From contig NZ_CP035418.1 in the NCBI RefSeq assembly GCF_004123675.1, positions 1 to 64,000 on the forward strand: a stretch of 64,000 nucleotides of DNA, written 5' to 3'. Both the position numbers and the translations under genes were made by a program. Shown here in pieces: positions 5,051 through 64,000 of this stretch (the stretch's first letter is position 1; every line of letters starts with the position of its first letter). The notes under the pieces are model-generated. The model saw only the letters and a program-made list of their open reading frames with translations, ran no database searches and was not told the origin of the DNA. This DNA is from Leisingera sp. NJS204 (GTDB taxonomy: Bacteria; Pseudomonadota; Alphaproteobacteria; Rhodobacterales; Rhodobacteraceae).

Positions 5051-5068
5051 CCTCAAAGGATCCCGATC

Positions 5069-5986
5069 ATGCCCCTGACCATGAACCGAGACGTCTTCAT
5101 CACCTGTGCCGTGACCGGCTCGGGCGGCACCCAGGATAAATCTCCCCACGTGCCGCGTTCGCCCAAGCAGATTGCCGACAGCGCAATCGCAGCCGCCAAA
5201 GCCGGCGCCGCCGTAGTTCACTGCCATGTGCGCGACCCGGAAACCGGTGCGCCGAGCCGGAAACTTGAGCTTTACCGGGAGCTGACCGACCGTATCCGCG
5301 ATTCCGAGGTGGACGTGGTGCTGAACCTGACCGCGGGCATGGGCGGCGATATTGTCTTTGGCGGGGTTGAGAGCCCGTTCCCGGTGAATGAGGCCGCCAC
5401 CGATATGATCGGCGCGACCGAACGGATGGCCCATATCGCCGAATGCCTGCCGGAAATCTGCACCCTGGACTGCGGCACCATGAACTTTGCCGAGGCCGAT
5501 TACGTGATGACCAACACGCCCGGCATGCTGCGCACGATGGGGCAGATGATGACCGATCTGGGTGTGAAGCCAGAGATCGAGGCCTTTGATACCGGTCATC
5601 TGTGGTTTGCCAAGCAACTGGTAAAAGAGGGGATTCTGGAGCCGAACGCGCTGGTGCAGCTGTGCATGGGGGTGCCGTGGGGGGCGCCCAATGACCTCAA
5701 CACCTTTATGGCGATGGTCAACAACGTGCCCGGCGATTGGACCTGGTCGGCGTTCTCCTTGGGCAGGGATCAGATGCCTTATGCCGCCGCTGCGGTGCTG
5801 GCGGGCGGCAATGTGCGGGTCGGGCTGGAGGACAACCTGTTTCTGGAAAAAGGCGTTCTGGCCACCAACGCGCAGCTGGTGGAGCGCGCGGCAGGCGTGA
5901 TCGAGGGCCTGGGCGCCCGGATCATCGGCCCGGATGCGGTGCGTGAAAAGCTGGGCCTGACCAAGCGGGCGCCGGTGGCAAAGTAG
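5069..5986 (+). CDS. cdhC: BKACE-family beta-keto acid cleavage enzyme, probable 3-dehydrocarnitine cleavage enzyme
   Basis: A 305-residue TIM-barrel enzyme of the BKACE (former DUF849) family, which condenses a beta-keto acid with acetyl-CoA and releases acetoacetate plus a new acyl-CoA. The zinc-binding HxH is seen in VVHCHVRDPETG (His51 and His53). VLNLTAGMGGD and GLEDN with a trailing hydrophobic stretch are also typical. Because it sits between acetoacetate-CoA ligase and the carnitine dehydrogenase fusion, the substrate is very likely 3-dehydrocarnitine, giving betainyl-CoA and acetoacetate. An AAAGGA ribosome site precedes the ATG. Other BKACE members act on 3-keto-5-aminohexanoate and similar acids, so the specificity rests on context. 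Confidence 0.88.
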   Translation: MPLTMNRDVFITCAVTGSGGTQDKSPHVPRSPKQIADSAIAAAKAGAAVVHCHVRDPETGAPSRKLELYRELTDRIRDSEVDVVLNLTAGMGGDIVFGGVESPFPVNEAATDMIGATERMAHIAECLPEICTLDCGTMNFAEADYVMTNTPGMLRTMGQMMTDLGVKPEIEAFDTGHLWFAKQLVKEGILEPNALVQLCMGVPWGAPNDLNTFMAMVNNVPGDWTWSAFSLGRDQMPYAAAAVLAGGNVRVGLEDNLFLEKGVLATNAQLVERAAGVIEGLGARIIGPDAVREKLGLTKRAPVAK

Positions 5987-6064
5987 GCGGCGGTGCAGGG
6001 GGTGCTTTGCGTGCGCCGCCTGTACACCGCTTATGCACCGCTGCGTTGCGGCAAAGAGGGCGGA

Positions 6065-6099
6065 TTGGGGGCTAGCCCCCAAACCCCCAGGATATTTTC
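6065..6099. repeat. Intergenic palindromic repeat, copy 1 (minus orientation)
   Basis: The 152-bp gap between the BKACE and carnitine dehydrogenase genes holds the perfect 18-bp palindrome TTGGGGGCTAGCCCCCAA (6065-6082), followed by AACCCCCAGGATATTTTCGG. Read on the minus strand, this gives AAATATCC, a G-run and a GGGGC..GCCCC hairpin. Two other spacers in this window (16991-17030 and 25641-25685) have the same architecture. It may act as a terminator or mRNA-processing hairpin between the two genes. Confidence 0.6.
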
Positions 6100-6139
6100 G
6101 GCAAGAGGAAGAACCGTGCGGTTCTAATGAGGACATCAG

Positions 6140-7561
6140 ATGAAGACAGCAGCAATTATCGGCGGCGGGGTGATCGGTGGCGGCTGGGCCGCGCGGTTCC
6201 TTCTGAACGGCTGGAACGTGCGGGTGTTCGACCCGGACCCGGAGGCAGAACGCAAGATCGGCGAGGTGCTGGCCAACGCCCGCCGCTCGCTGCCGTCGCT
6301 GTATGACAAGGCTTTGCCGCCTGAGGGCGCGCTGACCTTTCACGCGGATATGGCCGAAGCCGTGGCGGACGCGTCTTGGATCCAGGAGAGCGTGCCGGAG
6401 CGGTTGGACCTGAAGCACAGGATCCATGCGCAGATCCAGGCGCACGCGCCGGTGAACGCGGTAATCGGCTCGTCTACCAGCGGTTTTAAACCCTCGGAGC
6501 TGAATGCTGCGGGTGCCCGCGCGGTGGTGGCGCATCCGTTCAACCCGGTTTACCTGCTGCCGTTGGTCGAGCTGGTGGGCGATGCGGGCACTTGCGCGCA
6601 GGCCTCGGACCTGCTGCGCGGAGTGGGGATGTATCCGCTGACCGTGCGCAAGGAGATCGACGCCCATATCGCCGACCGGCTGCTGGAAGCGGTCTGGCGC
6701 GAGGGGCTGTGGCTGATCAAGGACGGCATCTGCACCACCGAGGAGCTGGACGAGTCGATCCGCATGGGCTTTGGCCTGCGGTGGGCGCAGATGGGCCTTT
6801 TCGAGACCTACCGGATTGCCGGCGGCGAGGCAGGCATGAAGCATTTCATGGCCCAGTTCGGCCCGGCGCTGGAATGGCCCTGGACCAAGCTGATGGATGT
6901 GCCTGAGTTCACCGAGGAACTGGTCGACCTGATCGCGGGCCAGTCGGACGCGCAATCGGGCCATATGCCGATCCGCGTACTGGAGCGGCTGCGCGATGAC
7001 AACCTGGTCGGCATGATGCGGGCGCTGAAGAAGTCCGGCAGCGGGGCAGGGGGCGTCATCAACACCCATGAGGCCACGCTGCCCGTGCCGGAGGCGGTGG
7101 AGCTGCCGGTCACCGTCAGCCGCCCCGTGCCGCAGAGCTGGACCGACTACAACGGCCATATGAACGAGGCGCATTACACCGAGGCCTCGGCCCAGGCGAC
7201 CGACCGCTTCATGGAGATGATCGGCTGCGATGCGGAATATATCGCCGCGGGCGGCAGCTATTTCACGGTCGAGAACCACGTGCGATTTCTGGATGAGCTG
7301 CACGAAGGCGATGCGCTGACTGTGACCACCCAGGTGCTGCAGGGCGACGGCAAGAAGATGCATCTGTTCCATCGCCTGCACGGCCCCGAGGGCCGGCTGG
7401 CAGCAACCGTGGAGACGCTGCTGTTGCACATGGATCTGACGGCGCGCGGCACTTCACTGCCGTCGCAGGCCGTGGCGGACAAGCTGGCGTCATATGCCGC
7501 CGCCCATGCCGGGATGCCGCTGCCCGGGGGCGCGGGGCGCCACGTCGGCCAGCGGGGCTGA
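6140..7561 (+). CDS. cdhA: L-carnitine dehydrogenase fused to betainyl-CoA thioesterase
   Basis: A 473-residue two-domain protein. Residues 1 to about 315 are a 3-hydroxyacyl-CoA dehydrogenase-like NAD enzyme with the Rossmann motif GGGVIGGGWAARF near residue 8 and the catalytic region GSSTSGFKPSEL..VAHPFNPVYLLPLVE. From about residue 320 a hot-dog thioesterase follows (WTDYNGHMNEAHYTEAS, residues about 333-349). Carnitine dehydrogenase oxidises L-carnitine to 3-dehydrocarnitine. The fused domain would release glycine betaine from betainyl-CoA made by the neighbouring BKACE. In Pseudomonas these activities are separate cdhA and cdhB genes; fusions occur in rhizobia and roseobacters. A TGAGGA ribosome site precedes the ATG. 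Two strong hairpins follow the stop. Confidence 0.92.
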   Translation: MKTAAIIGGGVIGGGWAARFLLNGWNVRVFDPDPEAERKIGEVLANARRSLPSLYDKALPPEGALTFHADMAEAVADASWIQESVPERLDLKHRIHAQIQAHAPVNAVIGSSTSGFKPSELNAAGARAVVAHPFNPVYLLPLVELVGDAGTCAQASDLLRGVGMYPLTVRKEIDAHIADRLLEAVWREGLWLIKDGICTTEELDESIRMGFGLRWAQMGLFETYRIAGGEAGMKHFMAQFGPALEWPWTKLMDVPEFTEELVDLIAGQSDAQSGHMPIRVLERLRDDNLVGMMRALKKSGSGAGGVINTHEATLPVPEAVELPVTVSRPVPQSWTDYNGHMNEAHYTEASAQATDRFMEMIGCDAEYIAAGGSYFTVENHVRFLDELHEGDALTVTTQVLQGDGKKMHLFHRLHGPEGRLAATVETLLLHMDLTARGTSLPSQAVADKLASYAAAHAGMPLPGGAGRHVGQRG

Positions 7562-7566
7562 ATTGG

Positions 7567-7634
7567 AAACCGGCGGCGTGCGGGCTGCCGGTTTTCTCTT
7601 GCGGGCCGGGCCTCCTCCCCGGTCCGGCCCGCAA
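7567..7634 (+). terminator. Tandem terminators after carnitine dehydrogenase fusion
   Basis: Two hairpins follow the stop codon. The first pairs AAACCGGC (7567-7574) with GCCGGTTT (7587-7594) and is followed by TCTCTT. The second is an 11-bp stem, TTGCGGGCCGG (7599-7609) with CCGGCCCGCAA (7624-7634), followed by TTTT. Together they should end or strongly reduce transcription before the BCCT gene, which then needs its own promoter. Confidence 0.7.
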
Positions 7635-7745
7635 TTTTGAACCATGGCCGTTGGGGAGGGCCGGAAATTTGCCGCCCGGGCAACCGGGCAGCCCCCGCGG
7701 CGGAGGAGCGCCGGGGGCAATTGTTCAGGGACAAGGGAGGACAAG

Positions 7746-9440
7746 ATGTCTGAGAGGAATTCCAACAACAGCCACCTGGTGGCAAAGTCCGGTTTCTTTA
7801 CCGGTCTGCATCCGGGGATGGGCATCGCCGCCAAGGCGATGATTGCCGCCTTTGTGATTTTCACCGTCCTGAATGTCGAATTTGCAGGCGGATTATACAA
7901 ATCCATCCGCGGCTGGATCGAAGGCGGCCTCAGCTGGTATTATATCTCGGTTCTGGCCGGGATCATGTTTTTCTGCTTCTTCCTGATGTTCTCGAAGTTT
8001 GGCAGCCTGCGGCTGGGGGACGATGACTCGCGCCCTGAATTCAGCAGCTTCAGCTGGTTTGCGATGCTGTTCTCGGCCGGGATCGGCATTGGCATCCTGT
8101 TCTTTGGCGTGGCGGAGCCGATCTTTTACTTCGATAACTCGGCGGTCTGGGGCTATCCTAACAACCCGCATGCCGAGCTTCAGGGCCATTCGGAAATGAA
8201 CATGCAGCGCGCCGTTGATGCGATGCGGGTGACTTATTTCCACTGGGGTTTCCACGGCTGGGCCTTATACGTGATCGTCGGCCTGTGCCTGGCTTATTTC
8301 GGCTTTCGCAAGAAGCTGCCGCTGACCATGCGCTCGGCGCTGTATCCGCTGATCGGTGAGCGGATCTACGGTCCCTGGGGCCACTGTGTGGACCTGCTGG
8401 CGGTGTTCGGTTCGGTGTTCGGGATTGCGACATCGCTGGGTCTGGGCACCAGCCAGATGGCCACCGGCCTTAATGTGCTGTTCGGGCTGGAGCCGACTAT
8501 GACGCTTAAGATTGTGCTGATTGTGATCGTGACAATCATTGCAACCGTGTCGACCGTTTCCGGCGTGGGCAAGGGCATCCGGCTGATTTCCGAATGGAAT
8601 ATCTGGCTGTCTATGTTCCTGCTTGCGGCCTTTGTGGTGATCGGGCCGGTCAAATGGCTGCTGGGGTTCTATGTGACGACGCTGGGCGATTACATCTGGA
8701 ACTTCATCCCGATGGGGTTCTGGACAGCCAGTTCCGAGGAAAACATCGCCTGGCAAGGCGGCTGGACTATCTTTTACTGGGGCTGGTGGATTGCCTGGGC
8801 GCCGATGGTGGGCATGTTCATTGCCCGCATCTCGCGCGGGCGCACTATCCGCGAGTTCATGGTGGGCGTGCTGTTCGTGCCGACCGCGATTGCTTTCTTC
8901 TGGCTGTGCATGTTCGGCGGCAACGCCATCTGGCAGGAGCTGAACATGGCCGGCGGTCCGGGTGCCGATGGCGGCGCAGGCGTTATTGCCACCGTGCAGG
9001 CCTGGGATCTGCCGTCGGCGCTGTACGGCACCATCGGCAATCTGGGCGCCACTTCCTGGCTGGGGGATCTGAGCTGGACCGCCTGGCCGCTGTCGGCGCT
9101 GGCGACGCTGCTGTTGTTCTCGTGGTTTGTGACCTCAGCGGATTCCGGCACGCTGGTGATCACCACCATGCTGTCGATGGGCGACGACAACCCGCCCAAG
9201 AAGTTCCGGATTATCTGGGGCGCGGGCATTGGCGCCACTGCGATTGTGCTGCTGTGGGCCGGGGGGCTTGGCGCCCTGCAGACCGCGTCGATTGCTGCGG
9301 CCTTCCCGATTTCGTTCGTGATCATCGCGATGACACTGGGGCTTTACAAGTCACTGAAAACTGATCCGTCTGCGTCGCCGATCAGTGAAGCCGGCGCTGC
9401 GCCGGATGGCACCCGTATTGTGCAGGACCTGCGCGCCTGA
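7746..9440 (+). CDS. BCCT family transporter (carnitine/betaine/choline type)
   Basis: A 564-residue inner-membrane secondary transporter of the betaine/carnitine/choline family with about twelve hydrophobic segments. The conserved core is plain: AMLFSAGIGIGILFFGVAEP near residues 105-124, and the tryptophan-rich FYWGWWIAWAPMVGMFIARI followed by SRGRT near residues 340-365. The family includes sodium-coupled uptake systems such as BetP and exchangers such as CaiT. Which coupling is used here is not settled by reading. ATG at 7746 follows an AGGGAGGACAAG ribosome site; the frame extends upstream to 7644 without family similarity. Adjacent to the carnitine enzymes, it most likely imports L-carnitine or a related quaternary amine. 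Confidence 0.93.
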   Translation: MSERNSNNSHLVAKSGFFTGLHPGMGIAAKAMIAAFVIFTVLNVEFAGGLYKSIRGWIEGGLSWYYISVLAGIMFFCFFLMFSKFGSLRLGDDDSRPEFSSFSWFAMLFSAGIGIGILFFGVAEPIFYFDNSAVWGYPNNPHAELQGHSEMNMQRAVDAMRVTYFHWGFHGWALYVIVGLCLAYFGFRKKLPLTMRSALYPLIGERIYGPWGHCVDLLAVFGSVFGIATSLGLGTSQMATGLNVLFGLEPTMTLKIVLIVIVTIIATVSTVSGVGKGIRLISEWNIWLSMFLLAAFVVIGPVKWLLGFYVTTLGDYIWNFIPMGFWTASSEENIAWQGGWTIFYWGWWIAWAPMVGMFIARISRGRTIREFMVGVLFVPTAIAFFWLCMFGGNAIWQELNMAGGPGADGGAGVIATVQAWDLPSALYGTIGNLGATSWLGDLSWTAWPLSALATLLLFSWFVTSADSGTLVITTMLSMGDDNPPKKFRIIWGAGIGATAIVLLWAGGLGALQTASIAAAFPISFVIIAMTLGLYKSLKTDPSASPISEAGAAPDGTRIVQDLRA

Positions 9441-9521: not shown

Positions 9522-9866
9522 TCAGTCGCAGGCAGCGGTGACGATGATCTCAACCTTCAGGATCTCGCGCGCCAATTTGGCCTCGCCGCAGGCACGCGCC
9601 GGGGCGTGGCCCTCGGGAACCCAGGCGTTCCAAACCTCGTTCAGCTCGGCGAAGTAGGACATGTCCGACAGCCAGATCACGGTCTGCAGCAGGCGGGTCT
9701 TGTCGCTGCCGGCCTCGGCCAGCAGGGCGTCGACCTTGGCCAGGATTTCACGGGTCTGCTCGGCTGCGGTGTCTGCTTCGGACACTTGGCCGCTGAAATA
9801 GGCAACACCGTTGTGCTTGACGATTTTGCTGGAGCGGGCGGTGGTGCCGGAACGGGTGATGGTCAT
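9522..9866 (-). CDS. RidA family (YjgF/YER057c/UK114) enamine/imine deaminase-like protein
   Basis: A 114-residue small trimer-forming protein of the RidA superfamily. Family members hydrolyse reactive enamine/imine intermediates or act in catabolic modules. Typical segments are VKHNGVAYFSGQVSE near residues 15-29 and a C-terminal VEIIVTAACD. Start 9866 is chosen because AAAGG lies 9-13 bases upstream; another in-frame ATG at 9887 would add seven residues but lacks a ribosome site. It is the last gene of the minus-strand operon that starts with the glutamate-synthase-like protein, 119 bp after the aldehyde dehydrogenase. RidA subfamily and substrate are not determined. Confidence 0.88.
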   Translation of the reverse strand: MTITRSGTTARSSKIVKHNGVAYFSGQVSEADTAAEQTREILAKVDALLAEAGSDKTRLLQTVIWLSDMSYFAELNEVWNAWVPEGHAPARACGEAKLAREILKVEIIVTAACD

Positions 9867-9985
9867 GCTGTACGCCTTTTCTGTCATGAGATGCTGCGGA
9901 CATACCGGTTGGAGCTGCTGGCGGAAAGGCCGCAGATGCAAAAGACATGCCGGGCCGGGGTTTGCGGCATCCCGGCCCGCTGGTA

Positions 9986-11371
9986 TCACAGCTTGATCAC
10001 CGCCATCTTGTCCTGGGTCATGTCATGCATGGTGTAACCGATGCCGCCGGTGTTGTAGCCGGACTGGCGGCGGCCGGCAAAGGGCATCCAGTCAACGCGG
10101 AAAGCGGTGTGGTCATTGACCATGACGGCGGTGGCGTCCAGCTGGCGCACGGCCTGCATTGCGGTGTCCAGGTTTTTGGTAAAGACCGCCGCCTGAAACG
10201 CGACCGGCAGGCTGTTGGCAACCTCAATCGCTTGCGGGATGCTGGCGGAGCTGTAAACGCAGATCACCGGGCCGAAGATTTCCTGTTGCGAGACGCGGGC
10301 GTCCGCCGGCGGGTCCAGCAGCACGGTGGGAGCATAGGTGGTCTCGCCCAGGCGCTTGCCGCCGGTCAGGACCTTGGCGCCGCCGTCGACAGCTTCCTGC
10401 ACCCATTCCTCGACCCGGTCAACCTCGGCAGGGCGGATCAGCGGGCCGCAATCGACGCTCGGGTCGGTGGCGTCGCCGACCGTCAGCGCTTGTGCCGCCT
10501 CTGCCAGTTTCTGCGCGATCTCTTCGGCCTTGGCGGCGGGCGCGAACACCCGCTGGACCGAGACGCAGACCTGGCCGGAGTGATAGAAACCGCCCTTGGC
10601 CAGTGCCGGGATCATCGCGTCAATGTCCGCGTCCCCGGCCACGATCACCGGGGCGGCGCCGCCGTGTTCCAGCGCGCAGCGGGTGCCGGGGGCCAGTTTG
10701 GAACGCAGCATCCAACCCACACGGGCAGAGCCGATGAAGGAGAAGAAGCCGGCGCGGGCGTCGGTGATCATCTTCTCGGCTATGTCGTTGCTGCAGACCA
10801 CTGAACGGCACCAGTCCTGCGGCAGCCCGGCCTCATGCAGCATGGCAACAAAGGTCTGGCACGACAGCGGCGTGTCCTGCGCCGGTTTCACAATCACCGG
10901 GCAGCCGGTGGCCACGGCGGGGGCGACCTGATGCACGATCAGGTTCAGCGGGTGGTTAAAGGCGCTGGCAGCCACCACCACGCCGATCGGCTCGCGCTGG
11001 GTAAAGGCGATGCGGCCTGCGCCTGCCGCGGTCAGGTCCATCGGGATTTCCCGCCCTGTCATCTGGCCGGTCTCATGCACGCACAGTTCCACCCCGTCGA
11101 TGGCGCGTTTGACCTCGACGCGTGCGTCCACCAGCGGCTTGCCGCCTTCGCTGGCGATCAAAAGGGCCAGCTCGTCAAACCGCGCCTCCATCAATCGGGC
11201 GGTTTTCCGCAGGATTTCAATGCGCTGATAGGCGGGCAGCCAGCCATCCCGCTGGCGGAACAACCCATGCGCGGTGTCCAGCATCGCATCTATCTGCGCC
11301 CAATCACTGGTCTCGACCGTGCCGATGCGTTCCAGGCTGTAGGGGTTCACGACTTCGACGGTTTTGGTCAT
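9986..11371 (-). CDS. NAD(P)-dependent aldehyde dehydrogenase family protein
   Basis: A 461-residue aldehyde dehydrogenase. Visible family elements are the cofactor-binding FSFIGSARVGWMLRSKLAP, the general-base glutamate in ALEHGGAAPVIV and the catalytic cysteine in FYHSGQVCVSVQRVF. The latter pattern resembles the phosphonoacetaldehyde/lactaldehyde/succinate-semialdehyde side of the superfamily rather than betaine aldehyde dehydrogenase. ATG at 11371 overlaps the upstream TPP-enzyme stop as ATGA and is preceded by AAAGGTG; a GTG nine bases further upstream is also in frame. The tight overlap means the aldehyde substrate probably comes from the TPP-enzyme reaction. The true substrate is unknown. 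Confidence 0.9.
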   Translation of the reverse strand: MTKTVEVVNPYSLERIGTVETSDWAQIDAMLDTAHGLFRQRDGWLPAYQRIEILRKTARLMEARFDELALLIASEGGKPLVDARVEVKRAIDGVELCVHETGQMTGREIPMDLTAAGAGRIAFTQREPIGVVVAASAFNHPLNLIVHQVAPAVATGCPVIVKPAQDTPLSCQTFVAMLHEAGLPQDWCRSVVCSNDIAEKMITDARAGFFSFIGSARVGWMLRSKLAPGTRCALEHGGAAPVIVAGDADIDAMIPALAKGGFYHSGQVCVSVQRVFAPAAKAEEIAQKLAEAAQALTVGDATDPSVDCGPLIRPAEVDRVEEWVQEAVDGGAKVLTGGKRLGETTYAPTVLLDPPADARVSQQEIFGPVICVYSSASIPQAIEVANSLPVAFQAAVFTKNLDTAMQAVRQLDATAVMVNDHTAFRVDWMPFAGRRQSGYNTGGIGYTMHDMTQDKMAVIKL

Positions 11372-13041
11372 ATCAGGCACACCTTTGCGGCCAGCTCATC
11401 AATCAGCACGCGCTGGTTTTCGCTGTAATCAACCGGCACGTCGATCAGATGCACGCCGCCTGCGGTAAAGGCTTTCTCAAACGTGGGCACCAGATCTTCG
11501 GTGCGCGCGATCCGGTGGCCGGTAGCGCCGTAACTGTTTGCATACTGGACAAAATCCGGGTTGTTGAATTCCAGCCCCCAGTCATCAAATCCCGCGTGCG
11601 CCTGTTTCCAGCGGATCATGCCGTATGAGCTGTCGTTCAGCACTGTCACCACGAGGTTGAGGCCTAGGCGGACAGCGGTTTCCAGCTCCTGACTGTTCAT
11701 CATAAAGCCGCCGTCGCCGCAGATCGCCATCACCCGGCGGTCCGGGTTCAGCTGCGCGGCCATCATTGCCGAGGGCAGGCCCGCCCCCATGGTCGCCAGC
11801 GCGTTGTCCAAAAGCACGGTATTGGGCTGATAAGCCTTGTAGTTGCGGGCGTACCAGATCTTGTAGATGCCATTGTCGAGCGCAATGATATCGCAGTCAC
11901 CCATCACCTTGCGGGTGTCCGCGACCAGCCGCTGCGGGATGATGGGAAAGCGCGGGTCATCGGCGCCTTCGGCGATATGCTGGTCGGTCTCTTTCTTGAT
12001 GCGCTGGAAATAGCCGCGGTCAAACTCCAGCGGCCCGCCCAGTATTTCCCCCAGCCGGTTGATGGATTGTTCCAGATCGCCAACCACCTCCACCTGCGGG
12101 AAATAGACCTGATCGACCTGCGCCGCCTTATAGTTCACATGGATCACCTTGGTGCCGCCGTGCTCCATGAAGAAGGGCGGTTTTTCGACCACATCGTGGC
12201 CGACGTTGATGATCAGATCGGCACGGTCGATGGCGCAGTGCAGATAATCGCCGTCCGACAGCGCCGCTGTGCCCAGGAACAGGTCCGAGCGTTCGTCGAT
12301 CACCCCCTTGCCCATCTGGGTGTTGAAGAAGGGGATCCGGGTCAGATCCGCAAAATCACACAGGGCTGAACGCGCCTTGCGCCGGTTGGCGCCGGCCCCC
12401 AGCAGCAGCAGCGGCATCTTGGCATTGCGGATCATCTCTGCCGCCTCGTTCAGCACCGCGTCGCCGGCCACCGCGTAATGGCGGGGATGCGGCTGCAGGA
12501 CCGTGGTATCGGTGTCTTCGGCGGCGATATCCTCGGGCAGTTCCAGCAGCACGGCACCGGGGCGTTCCTCCTGCGCGGTGCGGAAGGCCTCGCGGATCAG
12601 CGCCGGGATGGTGTTGCCGTGCACGATCTGCTTGGACATCTTGCAAATCGGATCGAACAGGCTGACCACGTCAATGATCTGGAACTGGCCCTGTTTCGAT
12701 TTCTTGATCGGCTTCTGGCCGGTGATCATGATCAGCGGCATGCCGCCCAGATGGGCATAAGCGGCAGGGGTGGCCAGGTTGGTGGCGCCAGGGCCAAGCG
12801 TCGCCATGCAGACACCCGCCTTGCCGGTGAGACGGCCATAGGTTGCGGCCATGAAGGCGGCGCCCTGTTCATGCCGGGTCAGCACCAGTTCGATCGATGA
12901 GGGACGCAGGGATTCCAGCAGGTCAAGGTTTTCTTCTCCCGGAACGGCAAAGACATACTCGACACCTTCAGCCTCCAGCGCGGCGACAAGAAGGTCCGAG
13001 GCTTTGACCGGCCCATCGGGTACAGAATGAGAGTCAGGCAT
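11368..13041 (-). CDS. Thiamine-diphosphate enzyme, acetolactate synthase large-subunit-like
   Basis: A 557-residue TPP enzyme with the three canonical domains. The Pyr domain shows YVFAVPGEENLDLLESL and HEQGAAFMAATYGRLTGKAGV, the latter including the activating glutamate. The PP domain shows the cofactor motif GDGGFMMNSQELETAVRLGL and then LNDSSYGM. No small regulatory subunit gene is adjacent, as in catabolic AlsS-like enzymes rather than biosynthetic IlvB. It lies between the FMN glutamate-synthase-like gene and the aldehyde dehydrogenase, with an ATGA overlap to the latter. It could decarboxylate or ligate 2-oxo acids; the annotation acetolactate synthase is a family call only. Confidence 0.88.
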   Translation of the reverse strand: MPDSHSVPDGPVKASDLLVAALEAEGVEYVFAVPGEENLDLLESLRPSSIELVLTRHEQGAAFMAATYGRLTGKAGVCMATLGPGATNLATPAAYAHLGGMPLIMITGQKPIKKSKQGQFQIIDVVSLFDPICKMSKQIVHGNTIPALIREAFRTAQEERPGAVLLELPEDIAAEDTDTTVLQPHPRHYAVAGDAVLNEAAEMIRNAKMPLLLLGAGANRRKARSALCDFADLTRIPFFNTQMGKGVIDERSDLFLGTAALSDGDYLHCAIDRADLIINVGHDVVEKPPFFMEHGGTKVIHVNYKAAQVDQVYFPQVEVVGDLEQSINRLGEILGGPLEFDRGYFQRIKKETDQHIAEGADDPRFPIIPQRLVADTRKVMGDCDIIALDNGIYKIWYARNYKAYQPNTVLLDNALATMGAGLPSAMMAAQLNPDRRVMAICGDGGFMMNSQELETAVRLGLNLVVTVLNDSSYGMIRWKQAHAGFDDWGLEFNNPDFVQYANSYGATGHRIARTEDLVPTFEKAFTAGGVHLIDVPVDYSENQRVLIDELAAKVCLI

Positions 13042-13084
13042 GAGGGCTCCTGTTCGTTGAATGTGGTGTTGACGGCGGATGAGG

Positions 13085-14593
13085 TTATTCCGCTGCGTGT
13101 TTCTGTTCCGGCACCGGAAACAGCTCCTCCATCGAGACAGAGCGGCCGTTATCCATCACAATCCTGGCGTGATAGCGTTTCAGCAGCCGCGGTTCGGCAA
13201 CGCCGCAGCTGTGGGCGAGAATGCCGACCTCCTTAACCATGTTTTTGGCGTAATAGGCGACGCGTTCGGATTTGCTGGCAGGATCCAGGCCGAATTGCAG
13301 TTTGGGGTCATGGGTGGTGATGCCGGTGGGGCAGGTGTTCTTGTTGCACTGCAGCGCCTGGATGCAGCCAAGCGCAAACATGAAACCGCGCGCCGAGTTC
13401 ACAAAATCCGCTCCGGCGCAGAACGCCCAGGCAACCTCGGACGGGTTGATCAGCTTGCCGCTGGCGCAGACCTTGATGCGGCCGCGCAACCCGTAGCGGG
13501 TCAGGATGTCCACCGTCAGCGGCAGGCTTTCGCGCAGGGGCATGCCCATATTGTCGATCAGGCTCATCGGGGCGGCGCCGGTGCCGCCATCGGCGCTGTC
13601 GATGGTGATGAAGTCCGGCGCGCTTTCAACACCGCGCGACAGGATTTCCTGGCACAGCCCTTCGACAAACCCATAGGCGCCGACCACCGCCTTGAAGCCC
13701 ACCGGCTTGCCGGTCACGTCGCGGACATAGGCGATCATGTCCAGCAGATCGCCGACGCAGTCGACCTCGGGATGGCGGTTGGGGCTGATGGCGTCCTCGC
13801 CCGGGGTAAGGCCGCGGATGGCGGCGATTTCCTCGGTCACCTTGGCGCCGGGCAGGATGCCGCCCTTGCCCGGTTTGGCGCCCTGGCTGAGCTTGAGTTC
13901 GAACATACGCACGCAGTCATGCGCCGCGACCGCGCGCAGCTTATCCTCGTCAAAGCCGCCCCCGGGCTTGCGCACGCCGAACTTGCCGGTGCCGATCTGG
14001 AACACGATGTCGGCGCCGCCCTCCAGGTGATAGGGCGACAATCCGCCCTCGCCGGTGTTGAGCCAGATCCCGGCCTTTTTGGCGCCATGCGACAGCGCCC
14101 GCACGGCGGGAACGGAAATGGCGCCAAAGCTCATGCCGGAAATGTTGAAGATCGATGCGGTGGTATACGGCGTGCGGGCATAGGGCCCGATAGTGACAGC
14201 CGCTGGATCCCTGGCGTCCTGCTCCAGCGCCGGGAAGGGGCAGTTGGCGAAATAGACCGTGCCCGCCGGGCGCAGATCGCGGGTGGAGCCGAAGGCGACG
14301 GTGGAATCCACATTCTTGGCTGCGCGGTACGCCCAGGAGCGTTCGGCCCGGTTGAATGGCATCTCCTCGCGGTCCAGGGCAAAGAAATACTGCCGGAAAA
14401 ACTCCCCCATATGTTCGAAGAAATAACGGAAACGGGCCACCACCGGGTAATTGCGGCGCAAAGTGCTGTCGGTCTGGGTCTTGTCGCGGATGTAGATCAC
14501 CACCAGCCACAAAACGCCGGCGCCGAAGGCAAAGATAAACGCATAAGACAGGAATTCGAGCAGCGCCAGTACGGTGCTGGATATCTGGGACAT
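13085..14593 (-). CDS. FMN-binding glutamate synthase-like protein, membrane-anchored
   Basis: A 502-residue protein with one N-terminal membrane helix (about residues 10-32) followed by the FMN/synthase domain of glutamate synthase. Key stretches are YHLEGGADIVFQIGTGKFGVR without the extra frame shifts of its overlapping frames, DFITIDSADGGTGAAP, and the cysteine cluster CIQALQCNKNTCPTGITTHDP, which resembles the 3Fe-4S ligand region of GltB. It lacks the glutaminase and GltB C-terminal domains, so it cannot be a complete glutamate synthase. Such stand-alone proteins are common and mostly uncharacterised. AAGGAG lies upstream of the ATG. It is first in a four-gene operon with the TPP enzyme, aldehyde dehydrogenase and RidA. 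Confidence 0.87.
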   Translation of the reverse strand: MSQISSTVLALLEFLSYAFIFAFGAGVLWLVVIYIRDKTQTDSTLRRNYPVVARFRYFFEHMGEFFRQYFFALDREEMPFNRAERSWAYRAAKNVDSTVAFGSTRDLRPAGTVYFANCPFPALEQDARDPAAVTIGPYARTPYTTASIFNISGMSFGAISVPAVRALSHGAKKAGIWLNTGEGGLSPYHLEGGADIVFQIGTGKFGVRKPGGGFDEDKLRAVAAHDCVRMFELKLSQGAKPGKGGILPGAKVTEEIAAIRGLTPGEDAISPNRHPEVDCVGDLLDMIAYVRDVTGKPVGFKAVVGAYGFVEGLCQEILSRGVESAPDFITIDSADGGTGAAPMSLIDNMGMPLRESLPLTVDILTRYGLRGRIKVCASGKLINPSEVAWAFCAGADFVNSARGFMFALGCIQALQCNKNTCPTGITTHDPKLQFGLDPASKSERVAYYAKNMVKEVGILAHSCGVAEPRLLKRYHARIVMDNGRSVSMEELFPVPEQKHAAE

Positions 14594-14973: not shown

Positions 14974-15867
14974 TTACAGGGCCGCGCTGCAGGCGTCGCG
15001 CATATCCTGGCCAAACAGTTCCACCGCGCGCCGCTGGACCTGACTGCGCCGGACGGCAAGCGAAAAGGCGGACTGCCAGCGCAACTGCGGGTGTGCCAGC
15101 TCCCGGAACCGGCCTGCCTTGACCCGGCTTTCCGCGAAATGCACCGGCAGCGGACCCAGATATTGCCCGGTCTCGATCAGCATCGCCATCGCTTCCATAT
15201 TGGCGGCCACTGCAGTTGGATCCGGGCGGTCAAGACCGGGAGAGACAGGCCTGTCATAAGAACGCTGGCAGTGCGGATACCTGGCGATCTCCTGCGGGTT
15301 GATCAACGCATCCGGCGCTGTGAACAAAGGGTGGTCCCGGCCGCAATAAAGCCGGTGCTCTTCGCGGCACAGCGGCTCATATGACAGGTCCGTGACCTGG
15401 TTGCGAAACGGCGCAATGGCCAGATTCAGCGCGCCTGAGATCAGCTGCTGGGTCAAACCAGCAGGAGAGGCGACAACGATTTCCAGCCGCACCTCGTTCG
15501 GGCGGGCCAGAAAACGCTGCAGGGCCTGGGCCAGATTGAGGCCGGGCAGGCTGCTCACGGCATCGACCACGCCGATGCGCAGATCGCCGGTGACCGCATC
15601 GCGCAGCTCCAGCAGTTCGGCGTCGAAATCGCGGGCGCTGCGCAGGATGCTGCGGGCCTTCTGATAGGCGATGGCGCCGCGTTCCGTCAGCCGGAACCCG
15701 CCGCGGCCGCGCTCGCACACCCGGTAGCCGAGCGCGGTTTCCAGATCGCGGATGCGGATGCTGATGGCGGATTGGGTGATCCCCAACGCATATTGCGCAT
15801 CGGAGAACCCGCCGCAGTCGGTCACGGTGACAAAAGTTTCCAGCAGCGTGTTGCGCAGCAGTTTCAC
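14974..15867 (-). CDS. LysR family transcriptional regulator
   Basis: A 297-residue LysR-type regulator. The winged HTH is at residues about 5-63 (LETFVTVTDCGGFSDAQYAL, ITQSAISIRIRDLETALGYR), followed by a periplasmic-binding-like effector domain. The frame is open far upstream, but GTG at 15867 with GGGGAGGAA just before it gives a normal LysR N-terminus (VKLLRNTLLETF). It is divergent from the ureohydrolase gene with a 129-bp gap containing a LysR-like dyad, so it most likely controls that gene. The inducer could be the guanidino substrate or its product. Confidence 0.9.
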   Translation of the reverse strand: MKLLRNTLLETFVTVTDCGGFSDAQYALGITQSAISIRIRDLETALGYRVCERGRGGFRLTERGAIAYQKARSILRSARDFDAELLELRDAVTGDLRIGVVDAVSSLPGLNLAQALQRFLARPNEVRLEIVVASPAGLTQQLISGALNLAIAPFRNQVTDLSYEPLCREEHRLYCGRDHPLFTAPDALINPQEIARYPHCQRSYDRPVSPGLDRPDPTAVAANMEAMAMLIETGQYLGPLPVHFAESRVKAGRFRELAHPQLRWQSAFSLAVRRSQVQRRAVELFGQDMRDACSAAL

Positions 15868-15909
15868 GTGCCTGTTCCTCCCCGGCGGTCCTGCAGGCAT
15901 TGCATGATA

Positions 15910-15926
15910 ATCTTTCATGTGAAGAT
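15910..15926. promoter_or_regulatory. Candidate LysR box between lysR and ureohydrolase gene
   Basis: In the AT-rich divergent spacer, ATCTT (15910-15914) and AAGAT (15922-15926) form an interrupted dyad of the T-N11-A style that LysR proteins favour. An AT-rich stretch with AATATTTTTTCATA follows 12-25 bp later. Seen by eye only. Confidence 0.4.
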
Positions 15927-15996
15927 AAACAGCATAATATTTTTTCATACAGTGATCTGTGCTGAGGTGCTGCCGGACCCGCAAATGGAGACACAT

Positions 15997-16962
15997 ATGT
16001 CTGGACACGGTTACGAAGCCGGCCGCCTGAACCTGCCCTTTGTCGGCATCGCCACCTTCGGCAAGAAACCCTATGTCGAGGATTGGGACAGCATAAACGC
16101 TGACGTTGCCATCCTTGGCGCGCCGTTTGATTCCGGCTGCCAGTTCCGCCCAGGCGCGCGTTTCGGCCCGCGCGCAGTGCGCGAGGCCTCGACGCTGTTC
16201 AGCTTCGGCCATGCCGGCGCTTACGACCACGAAGATGACGCCACCTACCTGGGCGAAGATGTGCGGATCGTCGATCTGGGCGATGCTGACATCATCCACA
16301 CCAAGACTGAGGAAAGCCACGCCAATATCGAATACGGCGTGAAGAAGATCCTGGCAGCCGGCGCCTTGCCTGTCACGATCGGCGGCGATCATTCGATCAA
16401 CATTCCCTGCATCAGCGCCTACGCCGCAGACTGCGCCGGAAACGGCCCGATCCATGTGGTGCAGATTGACGCGCATCTGGATTTTGTCGATGTACGTCAT
16501 GGGGTTACGGACGGGCACGGCAACCCGATGCGCCGTGCGATCGAAAAGGATTATGTCTCCGGAATGACCCAGCTGGGCATTCGCAATGTGTCCTCCACCG
16601 CCCGCGAAGGGTATACTGACGCACGGGCGCGCGGCTCGGACATTCTGTCGGTTCGCCAGGTGCGCAAGCTGGGGACGGATGCGGTGCTGGCGCGCATCCC
16701 TAAAGGTGCCCGCTATTACGTCACCATTGACATCGACGCCTTCTGCCCGTCGATCGCGCCGGGCACCGGCACGCCGAGCCATGGCGGTTTCCAGTATTAC
16801 GACGTGCTGGAGATCCTGCAGGGTCTCAGCAAACGCGGCGATGTTGCCGGTATCGACCTGGTGGAAGTGGCCCCAGCCTATGACCCTTCGGAAAGCACTC
16901 AGATTCTGGCTGCACAGCTCTTGTTGAATTTCATCGGCTTCATCTTCCACAACCGGCGCTGA
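15997..16962 (+). CDS. Ureohydrolase (agmatinase/guanidinobutyrase family)
   Basis: A 321-residue manganese ureohydrolase that would release urea from a guanidino compound such as agmatine. The metal-binding motifs are present: GGDHSINIP near residues 129-137, QIDAHLDFVD near 156-165 and TIDIDAFCPSIAPGTGTP near 243-260. ATG at 15997 is preceded by GGAG; an in-frame ATG four codons earlier is possible. It is divergent from a LysR gene. A second, distinct ureohydrolase is encoded at 56603-57574, so the two probably differ in substrate (agmatine, guanidinobutyrate, guanidinopropionate). Reading alone does not settle which is which. Confidence 0.88.
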   Translation: MSGHGYEAGRLNLPFVGIATFGKKPYVEDWDSINADVAILGAPFDSGCQFRPGARFGPRAVREASTLFSFGHAGAYDHEDDATYLGEDVRIVDLGDADIIHTKTEESHANIEYGVKKILAAGALPVTIGGDHSINIPCISAYAADCAGNGPIHVVQIDAHLDFVDVRHGVTDGHGNPMRRAIEKDYVSGMTQLGIRNVSSTAREGYTDARARGSDILSVRQVRKLGTDAVLARIPKGARYYVTIDIDAFCPSIAPGTGTPSHGGFQYYDVLEILQGLSKRGDVAGIDLVEVAPAYDPSESTQILAAQLLLNFIGFIFHNRR

Positions 16963-16990
16963 CACTTCAGGGGCTGCTTCTTTCTGGTTG

Positions 16991-17030
16991 GAAATACCCC
17001 GGGGAGCGCGAGGGGCCGGCCCCTCGCTCC
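16991..17030. repeat. Intergenic palindromic repeat, copy 2
   Basis: AAATACCCCGGGGAGCG runs into the perfect 18-bp palindrome CGAGGGGCCGGCCCCTCG (17009-17026). It lies between the convergent ends of the ureohydrolase and tetR genes and can act as a terminator. It is closely similar to copy 3 at 25641-25685 (AAATAC, CC, GGGGAGCG, then the same hairpin) and shares its architecture with copy 1 at 6065-6099. Confidence 0.65.
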
Positions 17031-17055
17031 TGCCATTGCCGCAGGCGCCGGGGTG

Positions 17056-17727
17056 TCAGGAGGCCATCTTACCCTCGGCAAAGGCCCGGGCGGCTGCGAC
17101 CGCCTCCGGATCAGGCTCTGCCCCGGTGAATCCCAGCAAATACCCTTCCAGCCGCGCGGTGCGGGCCTGCATCGGTTCGCGCACCTCCAGCGCGTGGTAG
17201 CCGCATTGCATGAAATACAGGATCCGGGCGCGGGAATCGGCCTCATACGGCGCATACCCGTGGCGCATGAACATGGCGGTGACCGCCTCCAGCCGCAGTG
17301 CATCCGCCGCATCGATCCGGTTGCGCACGTTGCCGTCGCGCCGCGACCATTCGCGGACTGCAAAGTCCAGCGACGCGTCGAACAGCTCCGGATCGACAAA
17401 ACAGCGGAAGAAATTGCAGACCGCCCAGGAAACATTGCCGGCCGGCAATTCGCAATGGGTAAGGATCGGATCGGTGTTGCGGGTCTCCCAATCGTCCAGC
17501 AGCGCCTCCAGCAGGTGCTTGCGGCTTTTGAAATACCAGTAGAAGCTGGAGCGCGAGACGCCCAGCCGCTCGCCGATGGCCAGCACCTTGACGCCTGCCA
17601 CCCCGTCGCTGATCAGCAGGTCGCGGGCCACGTTCAGCCAGTCCTCGGGCGTCACTTTGACATGGCCGCTAAGGGGTTCCTTGTCCGGGTTATCCCGGTG
17701 CAACACCGGGGCGGCGCGTTTGGCCAT
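17056..17727 (-). CDS. TetR family transcriptional regulator
   Basis: A 223-residue TetR-type repressor. The HTH covers residues about 30-75 (LLISDGVAGVKVLAIGERLG, VSRSSFYWYFKSRKHLLEAL), and the remainder is a helical effector domain. It starts one base after the stop of the mttB-like gene and is therefore the last member of that minus-strand operon. Likely it controls the methyltransferase/flavoprotein genes in response to a quaternary amine or a breakdown product; the ligand is unknown. Confidence 0.9.
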   Translation of the reverse strand: MAKRAAPVLHRDNPDKEPLSGHVKVTPEDWLNVARDLLISDGVAGVKVLAIGERLGVSRSSFYWYFKSRKHLLEALLDDWETRNTDPILTHCELPAGNVSWAVCNFFRCFVDPELFDASLDFAVREWSRRDGNVRNRIDAADALRLEAVTAMFMRHGYAPYEADSRARILYFMQCGYHALEVREPMQARTARLEGYLLGFTGAEPDPEAVAAARAFAEGKMAS

Positions 17728-17728
17728 G

Positions 17729-19282
17729 TCAGCTCTCCGGCGGTGCGCCGCCCTGGGCGGTGCGCTTGGCGATGAAGCTCTTCAAAGCCTCAACGCGGGT
17801 GTCGTCAGTCTTGGGCCGGTTATCATGGGCCAGGATGTCCTTCCAGACCCGGGTTGCGCGCTGGTTGGCGTCCAACGCCCCGCGCTCGCTCCAGGTGCCG
17901 AAATTGGCATAGTCATGCACCACGGGTTCGTAGAATTCTGTATTATAGCGCGCCATGGTCTGGGGAGTGGCAAAGAAATGGCCGCTTGGCTCCACCTCCT
18001 TGATCGCAGTGTCGTAGCCGATCTCGTCCGTGCCGGCCTGGGCTCCGGCGCACAGCTCGGCAATCATGTTCAGCACTTCGGCGTCGGTGATCAGCTTTTC
18101 ATAAGACACTGACAGCCCGCCCTCCAGCCAGCCGGCCGAGTGGATGATTACCGTGGCGCCTGCCATCAGGCAGCCCCAAAGGCCCATCTGGTTCTCATTT
18201 GCCGCCTGCACGTCATTGCTGTTTGACGCCGACCCCGCAGCCGACCGCCAGGGCAGACCGAGGAAGCGCGCCAGCTGGCCTGCCGCCAAGGACGCCTGGA
18301 AATGCGACGGGGTGCCGAACGCAGGCGCGCCGGACTTCATGTCCACGTTGGAGGTAAAAGTGCCATAACAGACCGGCGCGCCGGGATTGGTCAGCTGGGT
18401 CAGCGTCAGGGCCGCCAGCACCTCGGCATGGCTAAGGGTGATGGCGCCCGCAACGGTGATCGGTGCCATGGCCCCCATCAGCGTGAAGGGCGTGATGATC
18501 GAAACCTGGCCGTGCCGTGCAAAGTCGATCAGCCCCTGCGCCATCGGAATATCCAGCGTGCGCGGGCTGTTGGTGTTTATGATGGTGTAGCAGCGCGGCT
18601 CAGACCGGAAATCCGCATCCGACAGCCCGCGGAAATCGCGGATCATCTCGAAACAATCCATCACCTGCGGCGTCCCGCGTGAGAAGATGAAGGGGAACTT
18701 ATCGGTGCGCGTCATTTGCGCCTCGGTGGTGAAATAGTGGCGCAGATGCATCGGCACGTCCTGCGGCTCCACCTGGGGGGAGATCATGTGAAAGACGTCG
18801 AAGTGATGGGTAAGCTGCAGATATTCCAGGTAATCCTGCGCTGATCCGGGGCGGCGTCCGCGCTCCAGATCGGTGGCATTGGGCGCGCCTGCACCGGCCT
18901 GAAACACCAGGCTGCCCAGCTCCAGCGTGATGTCGCGCTCCCGCGCCCCGGCCCGGCAGATGATTGAGCGGGGCGCGGTGGCCAGCGCCGCCTCGATGAT
19001 GTCGCGGCCAATATAGACCATCTGGCTGTCTTCATCGACGCGGGCACCGCCCTTGGCATAGATCCGGCGCGCCTCGGGCAACAGCACCTTCATGCCCAGT
19101 TCCTCGAGCATCTTCAGCGCGGTTTCGTGCATGTCCGCGATCTGATGCTCCGGGAATACCTCCATCAGCGGAAATGGGTTTTTCAGCTGGCGGTAATTCA
19201 CATTGCGCTGCGGCGCGGCCCCGGCTGCGGATTTGCGGGTCCGGCGGCGCCCGCGGGAATTGCCTTCGTTCTCAAGGGTCAT
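17729..19282 (-). CDS. MttB superfamily (trimethylamine methyltransferase family) protein, non-pyrrolysine
   Basis: A 517-residue corrinoid-methyltransferase-family protein. Family signatures include LYEYLQLTHHF-like segments near residue 160, ITLSHAEVLAALTLTQL near 280 and PVCYGTFTSNVDMKSGAPAF. The frame has no in-frame TAG, so it lacks the pyrrolysine of methanogen MttB and belongs to the broad non-Pyl branch, whose studied members (MtgB type) demethylate glycine betaine, proline betaine or carnitine. It follows the dimethylglycine-dehydrogenase-like gene after 4 bp and precedes tetR by 1 bp. With carnitine-derived betaine made by the neighbouring cluster, betaine is a reasonable substrate guess. 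No corrinoid protein gene is visible nearby. Confidence 0.88.
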   Translation of the reverse strand: MTLENEGNSRGRRRTRKSAAGAAPQRNVNYRQLKNPFPLMEVFPEHQIADMHETALKMLEELGMKVLLPEARRIYAKGGARVDEDSQMVYIGRDIIEAALATAPRSIICRAGARERDITLELGSLVFQAGAGAPNATDLERGRRPGSAQDYLEYLQLTHHFDVFHMISPQVEPQDVPMHLRHYFTTEAQMTRTDKFPFIFSRGTPQVMDCFEMIRDFRGLSDADFRSEPRCYTIINTNSPRTLDIPMAQGLIDFARHGQVSIITPFTLMGAMAPITVAGAITLSHAEVLAALTLTQLTNPGAPVCYGTFTSNVDMKSGAPAFGTPSHFQASLAAGQLARFLGLPWRSAAGSASNSNDVQAANENQMGLWGCLMAGATVIIHSAGWLEGGLSVSYEKLITDAEVLNMIAELCAGAQAGTDEIGYDTAIKEVEPSGHFFATPQTMARYNTEFYEPVVHDYANFGTWSERGALDANQRATRVWKDILAHDNRPKTDDTRVEALKSFIAKRTAQGGAPPES

Positions 19283-19286
19283 CGGG

Positions 19287-21692: not shown

Positions 21693-21830
21693 GGGCTTGC
21701 TCCCTGTCTGCTGCCGCGGGGCCGGGCCCCCCCGAATCCGCCTTTTGGACATTCCTGTCCAATTGATCGGCGATCCTGGACAGTCTTGTCCAGAAAAATC
21801 GTGCGCAGTGGGGTCAGGAGCGGGGCCGGG

Positions 21831-63011: not shown

Positions 63012-64000
63012 TTACCCCATCCAGCGGCGGACAGGCGCGGCGGCCTCTTCCAGCGCCTGGCAGACCACGTCAATCAGGGTCGGGCCGTCATGGGCAAAGG
63101 CTTCTTTGATGGCTGGGTCCAGATCCTCAGGGTGTTCCACCCGCCAGGTCTTGACGCCGAACGCTTCGGCCACGGCGGCGTGGTTGGTGCGGTTGAAGTC
63201 GACATTGTAATACCGCTTATCGCAGTCGTCGCGCTGGCTGGCCTTGATCCAGCCGAAGTTGGCGTTGGAGAACACCACATAGGTGATCGGTGCATTGCAG
63301 CGCACCACGGTTTCCAGCTCGCCGCAGGTGAAGTTGAAGGAGCCGTCGCCCATCATCCCGACAACCTTGGAGCCGGGACGCCCGAACCAGGCACCCAGCG
63401 ACGCCGACAAGGAATAGCCCAAGGCGCCATGCGCCCGGTTGGTGATATACTGCCGCCCCGAATGCTGCTGCTGTGAATAGGCGTTGAAATAGGGGCAGCT
63501 GGTGCCGGGGTCGGAGACCACGATGGCGTCATCGGGCAGGTTCCGGTTCAGCGCGTGGATGATCTGCTCCGGCAGGACCTGATCGGTTGCGCTGTTTGCC
63601 AGCGCCTCGAACTTGGCGAACTTGCGCTGTTTGATGTCCGCGGTTTTCGCGGCCCCGCTGAACGTTGGCACTTCGCCCTTGCGTCCGTCCAGATAGGCAT
63701 TGACCGCCTGCAGCGCCAGTTTCAGGTCGGCCACCACGCCGACCTCTGTCGGGTAATTGGCGCCGATGGTCATCGGGTCGTTGTCAAAATGCACGATGCG
63801 GCGGCCAGGCTTGGGCGCCTCCCAGCGCGAGGTGGTGGTGGAGCCTGCCCGGCAGCCCATGAAGATGACCAGATCGGCACCCTCCATCATCTCCCAGGTC
63901 TCATCTGTGCCGCCGTTGGAGCCGACCACGCCCAGCGATTGCGGATGCGTATCAGCCAGCGAACCCTTGCCGGAGATAGAGGTGCCCACGGCGATGTCAA
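63012..64000 (-). CDS. Thiamine-pyrophosphate enzyme (acetolactate synthase-like), C-terminal part
   Basis: About 329 residues of a TPP enzyme; its start lies beyond the right edge. The visible middle domain has DLVIFMGCRAGSTTTSRWEA, and the PP domain has the cofactor motif GMMGDGSFNFTCGELETVVR followed by NANFGW. It differs clearly from the TPP enzyme at 11368-13041. Substrate is unknown; the missing Pyr domain would help. The frame stays open to the window end, so 64000 is not a true start. Confidence 0.87.
   Translation of the reverse strand, partial: DIAVGTSISGKGSLADTHPQSLGVVGSNGGTDETWEMMEGADLVIFMGCRAGSTTTSRWEAPKPGRRIVHFDNDPMTIGANYPTEVGVVADLKLALQAVNAYLDGRKGEVPTFSGAAKTADIKQRKFAKFEALANSATDQVLPEQIIHALNRNLPDDAIVVSDPGTSCPYFNAYSQQQHSGRQYITNRAHGALGYSLSASLGAWFGRPGSKVVGMMGDGSFNFTCGELETVVRCNAPITYVVFSNANFGWIKASQRDDCDKRYYNVDFNRTNHAAVAEAFGVKTWRVEHPEDLDPAIKEAFAHDGPTLIDVVCQALEEAAAPVRRWMG

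Follow-up and report, generated by a model that had tools for sequence, protein, structure and literature searches.

The closest described counterpart of the genes discussed here comes from cyanobacteria, in which a 2-oxo-acid decarboxylase dependent on thiamine pyrophosphate (TPP) and an aldehyde dehydrogenase (ALDH) make up a known bypass (PMC5160925, PMC10418658; all papers are cited for excerpts of their text). In strain PCC 7002 the gene of the 2-oxoglutarate decarboxylase, ogdA, lies with ssaD in one operon (PMC5160925), and PMC4224347 refers to the cyanobacterial decarboxylase gene as one for acetolactate synthase. According to the excerpt of PMC10418658, 2-oxoglutarate was the sole one of six 2-oxo acids tried from which the enzyme MaKGD formed an aldehyde. 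A succinic semialdehyde dehydrogenase from cyanobacteria relies on Arg139 and Ser420 (PMC7510979); a further excerpt, from PMC6630311, concerns Euglena. The present work deals with a stretch of 64,000 nucleotides (the window) from Leisingera sp. NJS204 (contig NZ_CP035418.1, positions 1 to 64,000), in which a flavoprotein resembling GltB, a TPP-dependent enzyme, an ALDH and a RidA-family protein are encoded one after another. No study of this gene set appeared among the matches listed in searches of openly licensed PMC papers; the statement of a first-pass annotation of this DNA, that it knew of no standard pathway with such a set, was partly wrong, since a TPP-dependent decarboxylase and an ALDH together are the cyanobacterial bypass.

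The reading put forward here, with a little less than even confidence, is that the four genes form a side route from glutamate or 2-oxoglutarate to succinate by way of an aldehyde, in which the TPP enzyme works like OgdA. The membrane-anchored GltB-like protein, with flavin mononucleotide (FMN) and a 3Fe-4S cluster, would interconvert glutamate and 2-iminoglutarate or 2-oxoglutarate, and RidA would hydrolyse the imine; the TPP enzyme, to judge by its ALDH partnership and its pocket residues, would convert 2-oxoglutarate into succinic semialdehyde, which the ALDH would oxidise to succinate. That the chemistry of the TPP enzyme is aldehyde-forming is likely. What is directly observed is gene order, conservation, the swapping of partners and the conservation of residues. 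The set of four is not random: the order of the GltB-like and TPP genes is constant in the genus, and the pairing of TPP enzyme and ALDH extends far outside it.

The TPP enzyme and its ALDH partner

Conservation beyond the genus was followed in the best 80 of 583 confirmed TPP relatives from a collection scan, 74 of them with at least 1 kb of downstream sequence (individual loci bear L numbers and genomes G numbers). An adjacent ALDH gene, defined as one on the same strand within 400 bp of the TPP gene, occurs in 60 of the 80 loci and in many phyla (59 as open reading frames, ORFs, and L092 by tblastn). The partner is not always the same protein. Assigned by best match to four hand-chosen representatives, it is of the window type in 54 loci (53 and L092), of the L144 type in three (L114, L130 and L144), of the Sad type in two (L140 and L141) and of the L157 type in one. 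The partner switches type and yet stays an ALDH, so that the TPP enzyme is probably aldehyde-forming, which supports the earlier suggestion that a 2-oxo acid is cleaved to an aldehyde that is then oxidised. No adjacent ALDH is present in 20 of the 80 loci, for instance Marinobacter L110 and L120. The ALDH of L143 is a fragment cut off by the end of its contig.

By sequence, the best solved relative of the window ALDH is ALDH21. The catalytic residues C272 and E238 are present, together with R92 and R428, which align with two arginines of ALDH21 that bind a carboxylate. Among window-type ALDHs (at least 50% identity to the window protein) R92 is kept in 61 of 61 and R428 in 59, the other two having gaps, and both arginines are found in all four L144-type ALDHs and in none of three unrelated ALDHs at the same loci. 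The L157 ALDH has the first arginine only and the L140 ALDH neither. The arginines suggest an anionic aldehyde as substrate. The Sad-type partner of L140 is closest in the PDB to the succinate-semialdehyde dehydrogenases (SSADHs) 4it9 and 3vz1, with 492.8 bits, which are presumably SsaD of PCC 7002.

Sixteen plasmid neighbourhoods of the TPP gene, picked by hand and with incomplete gene tables, gave an ALDH beside it in six (L016-L019, L166 and L167), a GltB-like gene in one (L168) and neither in nine; two of these nine (L175 and L177) lie within the 58-62% identity range, and in L173 an annotated succinate-semialdehyde dehydrogenase is found about 5 kb away.

Some further features of these loci are recorded in their own right. 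In Croceicoccus and Aurantiacibacter/Erythrobacter (L017, L092, L094, L095 and L096) the TPP-ALDH pair has metal-efflux genes in its vicinity, joined in four of the five by a multicopper-oxidase gene. On a Sinorhizobium meliloti plasmid (L169:5001-6580) the match of the TPP relative is split in two, each piece being annotated as a hypothetical protein, and phaC and a gene for an iron-containing alcohol dehydrogenase are close by. Candidatus Anammoxibacter (L124) carries the TPP gene twice, with about 2.9 kb between the copies, and its genome (G243) has an acetolactate decarboxylase. The window itself holds another TPP enzyme, roughly 26% identical, at its right edge (63057-64000), extending to C2:64688.

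Pocket residues, model scores and the choice of substrate

The catalytic glutamate (E58) and the GDG motif (G442-D443-G444) of the TPP enzyme, as well as K394 and K479, equivalents of MaKGD K386 and K471, for which contacts with 2-oxoglutarate are reported, show no variation in ten homologues collected without the use of motifs, nor in any of 97 relatives; the 97 include many closely related sequences, and a search with the motifs GDGGFMM and GMIRWKQ yielded 80 of them, so that conservation inside these motifs, where both GDG and K479 lie, is partly by construction. AlsS carries A and Q at the columns of K394 and K479; four paralogues from the genome of the window have Q/R/C/P and W/K/S/S, the biosynthetic-looking one carrying Q and W. 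From these sequences, the pocket of the window clade appears like that of MaKGD yet not identical, and since the resemblance is partial the enzyme is said to work like OgdA and not to be an OgdA.

A number of observations weigh against 2-oxoglutarate as the substrate or against the route as a whole, and they are brought together here with the alternatives that they favour. Four docking contacts of MaKGD differ in the window enzyme (V382 to N390, A384 to I392, H385 to Y393 and L467 to M475), N390 being invariant in the 97 relatives and Y393 present in 96 of them; Q254 of MaKGD is mismatched too, where the offset used may fail. This constant offset of +8, at which 12 of the 17 named MaKGD residues are identical, was found by scanning and depends on residue numbers only, and the MaKGD contacts themselves come from docking on a model. 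Other PRK08322 members score similarly (14 of 17 for L167, itself not scanned against NCBIfam, 13 for L166 and 11 for L168), so the figure supports the PRK08322 family more than the window clade; L166, from a Leisingera plasmid, keeps the equivalents of V382, A384, H385 and L467 but has His for K471.

On the side of the dehydrogenase, the window ALDH falls below all 25 NCBIfam cut-offs listed, reaching 270.4 of 646.35 bits with the SSADH model TIGR01780, and the lactaldehyde (353 bits), phosphonoacetaldehyde (294 bits) and sulfoacetaldehyde (287 bits) models all score higher; the Sad-type partner of L140 is likewise under its cut-off (574 of 730 at best). These scores and the residues at 390, 392, 393 and 475 would fit a TPP enzyme that decarboxylates another 2-oxo acid, either anionic (oxaloacetate, 2-oxoadipate or sulfopyruvate) or neutral, the ALDH oxidising its aldehyde and the GltB-like protein handling the matching amino acid, and the ALDH partnership would be conserved whatever the substrate. 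This alternative is possible, if rather unlikely, given that linked GltB-like proteins keep the glutamate-synthase pocket residues (as unlinked ones also do) and that SSADH-type partners occur in L140 and L141. An assignment of the ALDH as a phosphono- or sulfoacetaldehyde dehydrogenase was rejected, its scores being under the cut-offs.

The name of the TPP enzyme points elsewhere. It passes PRK08322, "acetolactate synthase large subunit", with 865.6 bits (cut-off 509), and its nearest solved structures, 13bb_A the closest, are named acetolactate synthase; 13bb_A has Met at the K394 column and shares the Lys at that of K479, and the own-genome paralogue L003 has R and K at these two columns. 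A2770 is said, in the excerpt of PMC7281201, to encode acetolactate synthase as well as decarboxylase. Near the TPP gene, moreover, there is a pyruvate kinase gene in L136 (and in L155 by clustering), and malic enzyme with 2-oxoacid:ferredoxin oxidoreductase subunits in L142, neighbours that would fit pyruvate as well as 2-oxoglutarate. A catabolic acetolactate synthase or a pyruvate decarboxylase, with the ALDH oxidising acetaldehyde to acetate, is nevertheless decidedly unlikely: both AlsS cut-offs are missed (TIGR02418, 404.1 of 551.1; PRK08617, 440 of 510), Lys stands where the biosynthetic-looking paralogue has Trp, the arginines of the ALDH point to an anionic aldehyde, and 51 of 53 TPP-bearing genomes, the host included, lack acetolactate decarboxylase (PF03306), for which three of 14 control genomes were positive. 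The gamma-glutamyltranspeptidase genes that flank the TPP gene in L105 and L091 fit glutamate.

The remaining adverse points concern the genomes. The host has an ordinary SucA, so that the proposed route to succinate is not needed to close its tricarboxylic acid (TCA) cycle. SucA is missing (at E<=1e-50) from 15 of 50 TPP-bearing genomes, and an adjacent ALDH is found in 13 of 14 genomes lacking it versus 22 of 34 of the others, a difference that is suggestive but not significant (p=0.07, with kinship ignored); several of these are metagenome-assembled genomes (MAGs), in which absences may be gaps, and L092 and L142, whose ALDH lies 1.6 kb away, were counted as ALDH-adjacent by hand. Within the genus the ALDH is absent from seven of 17 TPP loci. 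In 198 genomes of the family (thresholds E<=1e-150 for the TPP enzyme, 1e-60 for the GltB-like protein and 1e-120 for carnitine dehydrogenase) the TPP enzyme occurs in eight and the GltB-like protein in 122, and the two are neighbours in three (G000, G013 and G075), which is three of the eight and three of the 122, so that the majority of GltB-like genes in the family stand beside other genes.

The GltB-like flavoprotein, RidA and the layout of the locus

The GltB-like protein matches Pfam Glu_synthase with 283 bits and, of the 1490-position GltB model, positions 861-1160 only; it consists of the FMN/3Fe-4S region, with no glutamine amidotransferase domain, and has a single strongly hydrophobic stretch at its N-terminus. 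The 3Fe-4S cysteines C410, C416 and C421 are present, and together with E182, K234, K240 and R260 they are kept in 26 of 27 linked GltB-like proteins, the remaining one being a fragment (K240 was read from aligned strings, and one cluster cysteine reads X in one MAG). The Glu, the two Lys and the Arg are pocket residues of glutamate synthase, and the glutamine in the 2-oxoglutarate site of that enzyme is replaced by Ile246. Since 29 free-standing copies keep the same residues (E182 and K240 by construction, since GEGG and AKPG served as search motifs for this set), these residues indicate general glutamate-like chemistry and not a link with the TPP enzyme.

Of the 80 TPP loci of the collection scan, 14 have a GltB-like gene no more than 2.5 kb away, as do ten of the 60 that have 2.5 kb on both sides; in L142 the distance is 3.1 kb. 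The 14 comprise two Leisingera and twelve others: Alphaproteobacteria, Hyphomicrobiales/Rhizobiales (3), Pseudomonadota, Nitrosomonas, a gammaproteobacterial symbiont, a Deltaproteobacterium, SAR324, Pelagicoccus, Vicingaceae and Cyclobacteriaceae. The gene is placed upstream of, downstream of or opposed to the TPP gene. If such a gene occurs once or twice in 4 Mb, a rough estimate puts the number of chance pairings in 80 loci well below one. On a Streptomyces plasmid, outside the scan, a TPP relative of 41% identity adjoins a gene of the FMN-binding glutamate synthase family. On a Ruegeria conchae locus (L016:13181-13558) there is only a GltB-like fragment (residues 24-149, 45%) upstream of the TPP-ALDH pair.

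The RidA-family protein scores 80.2 bits with PF01042 and stays under the stricter cut-off of TIGR00004 (50.7 of 106.25). Its listed start, GTG 9989, is probably too early and ATG 9866 is likelier: the ATG-initiated ORF of one relative (114 residues) starts at the equivalent of 9866 and that of another five residues earlier, and tblastn matches to relatives begin anywhere between residues 13 and 41. In other genera RidA was not found beside the TPP gene, except for a weak match near L087; in Vibrio an annotated RidA lies near a TPP relative of 39% identity.

In the genus set of 21 genomes, for which the name Leisingera follows from near-identical named Leisingera plasmids, the TPP enzyme is present in 17, and the GltB-like gene lies directly upstream in 17 of 17. 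The ALDH (10 of 17) and RidA (13 of 17) vary; the check on variation among relatives proposed in the first-pass annotation therefore gave a mixed result. In G206 and G207 RidA is 2.0 and 6.8 kb from the ALDH, the gap in G206 (L182:5688-7680) being occupied, by eye, by a DMT-type transporter gene and a LysR gene. A close RidA copy (at least 94% identity) is a Leisingera feature, found in 16 of the 21 genomes, and the GltB-like gene is on the same stretch in 16 of 16. This holds also without the TPP gene, as in G203, where RidA directly follows the GltB-like gene, and in G209 and G210, where the two are about 2 kb apart on one strand. RidA thus travels with the GltB-like gene, and the TPP-ALDH pair behaves like a removable cassette between them; the RidA-aided imine step suggested earlier is plausible, these three genomes keeping both genes on one strand. 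In G209 (L189:10918-12749) the TPP position is taken by other ORFs, one of which looks by eye like an ECF sigma factor, and G210 (L193:9841-11714) has a gap of similar size.

The features of the locus are collected in Table 1. The four genes are, as the first-pass annotation had it, on one strand, here the minus strand, and their Pfam and NCBIfam families agree; its overlap of 4 bp (ATGA) between the TPP and ALDH genes holds if the ALDH starts at ATG 11371; the longest ORF, from GTG 11380, is also possible and would overlap by 13 bp. The gaps are 43 bp between the GltB-like and TPP genes and about 120 bp between ALDH and RidA, taking 9866 as the start of the latter. Terminator-like matches number six, with 4.2 +/- 1.8 in shuffles, so that their count is near chance; the longest is the hairpin just 3' of RidA, and none of the six separates any two of the four genes. 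A search for sigma-70-like promoters gave none, with 1.3 expected. The four genes are predicted to make up a single minus-strand transcription unit. Over the operon region the DNA matches a Leisingera plasmid at 98.6% identity, and the window, which lies on contig C2 of the genome of this marine bacterium, is taken as plasmid DNA.

Table 1. Features of the four-gene locus and their coordinates in the window
Feature	Position	Strand	Remarks
GltB-like flavoprotein	14593-13085	minus	502 aa; Pfam Glu_synthase
TPP enzyme	13041-11368	minus	557 aa; NCBIfam PRK08322; annotated acetolactate synthase; predicted 2-oxo acid (2-oxoglutarate) decarboxylase
Aldehyde dehydrogenase (ALDH)	11371-9986	minus	Pfam Aldedh; predicted succinic-semialdehyde-type dehydrogenase
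RidA-family imine deaminase (predicted)	9866-9522, start uncertain	minus	Pfam Ribonuc_L-PSP
Terminator-like hairpin, 12 pairs	9496-9467	minus	between convergent RidA and BCCT genes

On the plus strand, at 3104-9440, there are genes for acetoacetate-CoA ligase, a BKACE-like cleavage enzyme (under the named cut-offs), carnitine 3-dehydrogenase (PRK07531) and a BCCT transporter; a second carnitine dehydrogenase copy, of 69% identity, is on C1. Upstream of the operon, at 14974-23882, lie LysR, an agmatinase-family gene, TetR, an MttB-family methyltransferase gene and, judged by eye, genes for a DMGDH-like protein and an oxidoreductase; some genus loci carry this block and others lack it. An arginine route (2-ketoarginine decarboxylase with the guanidinobutyrase-like neighbour) was rejected, the TPP enzyme scoring 256 of 500 with PRK07524 and the agmatinase-family gene being found in only six of 17 genus stretches, once as a partial copy.

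The first-pass annotation had offered, as one idea, a substrate derived from a methylated amine. The carnitine dehydrogenase gene is indeed on the same stretch in most genus loci examined, and BCCT genes lie near the TPP gene in L082 and L157, the latter with a Rieske-type oxygenase pair (by eye). It is very improbable, however, that the unit belongs to carnitine, betaine or methylamine catabolism: transcription is convergent, with the terminator-like hairpin between, and carnitine dehydrogenase occurs in 144 of the 198 family genomes versus eight for the TPP enzyme. The TPP gene is found without a close carnitine copy in G198 and G202, and the carnitine genes without TPP in G203, G209 and G213 (in the stretch of G213 examined there is neither GltB-like gene nor RidA). 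The two groups are therefore separable, and the methylated-amine origin is not supported.

Comparison with described systems

A wider proposal would be that a glutamate-fed bypass, made up of a membrane-anchored stand-alone GltB-like protein, a misnamed 2-oxoglutarate decarboxylase and an ALDH, exists in several phyla and closes the TCA cycle in some bacteria that lack SucA; this is rather unlikely. If it is true, many "acetolactate synthase" genes would be those of 2-oxoglutarate decarboxylases, the cyanobacterial TCA bypass would reach well beyond cyanobacteria, and part of the large group of stand-alone GltB-like proteins would gain a role in glutamate oxidation.

As regards the flavoprotein, GltB and Fd-GOGAT share with it the FMN-barrel region, the three 3Fe-4S cysteines and the pocket Glu/Lys/Lys/Arg, whereas the window protein has no amidotransferase domain, carries an N-terminal hydrophobic helix and has Ile in place of the pocket Gln; the N-methylglutamate synthase MgsC is also a comparable system. 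AlsS and BudB resemble the TPP enzyme in family and TPP-binding residues and are the next best named functions in NCBIfam; the window enzyme differs from them in its scores under the AlsS cut-offs, in other pocket residues and in a host without acetolactate decarboxylase.

The ogdA-ssaD pair (SYNPCC7002_A2770-A2771) has, like the window, a gene resembling acetolactate synthase beside an ALDH gene, and the window enzyme keeps the catalytic Glu, the GDG motif and the two lysines for which contacts with 2-oxoglutarate are reported in MaKGD. The window enzyme differs at the four docking contacts, and its locus has the additional GltB-like and RidA genes. Its ALDH is of another type than the Sad-type SSADHs; ALDH21 is the closest by sequence, and both arginines of ALDH21 are kept in it.

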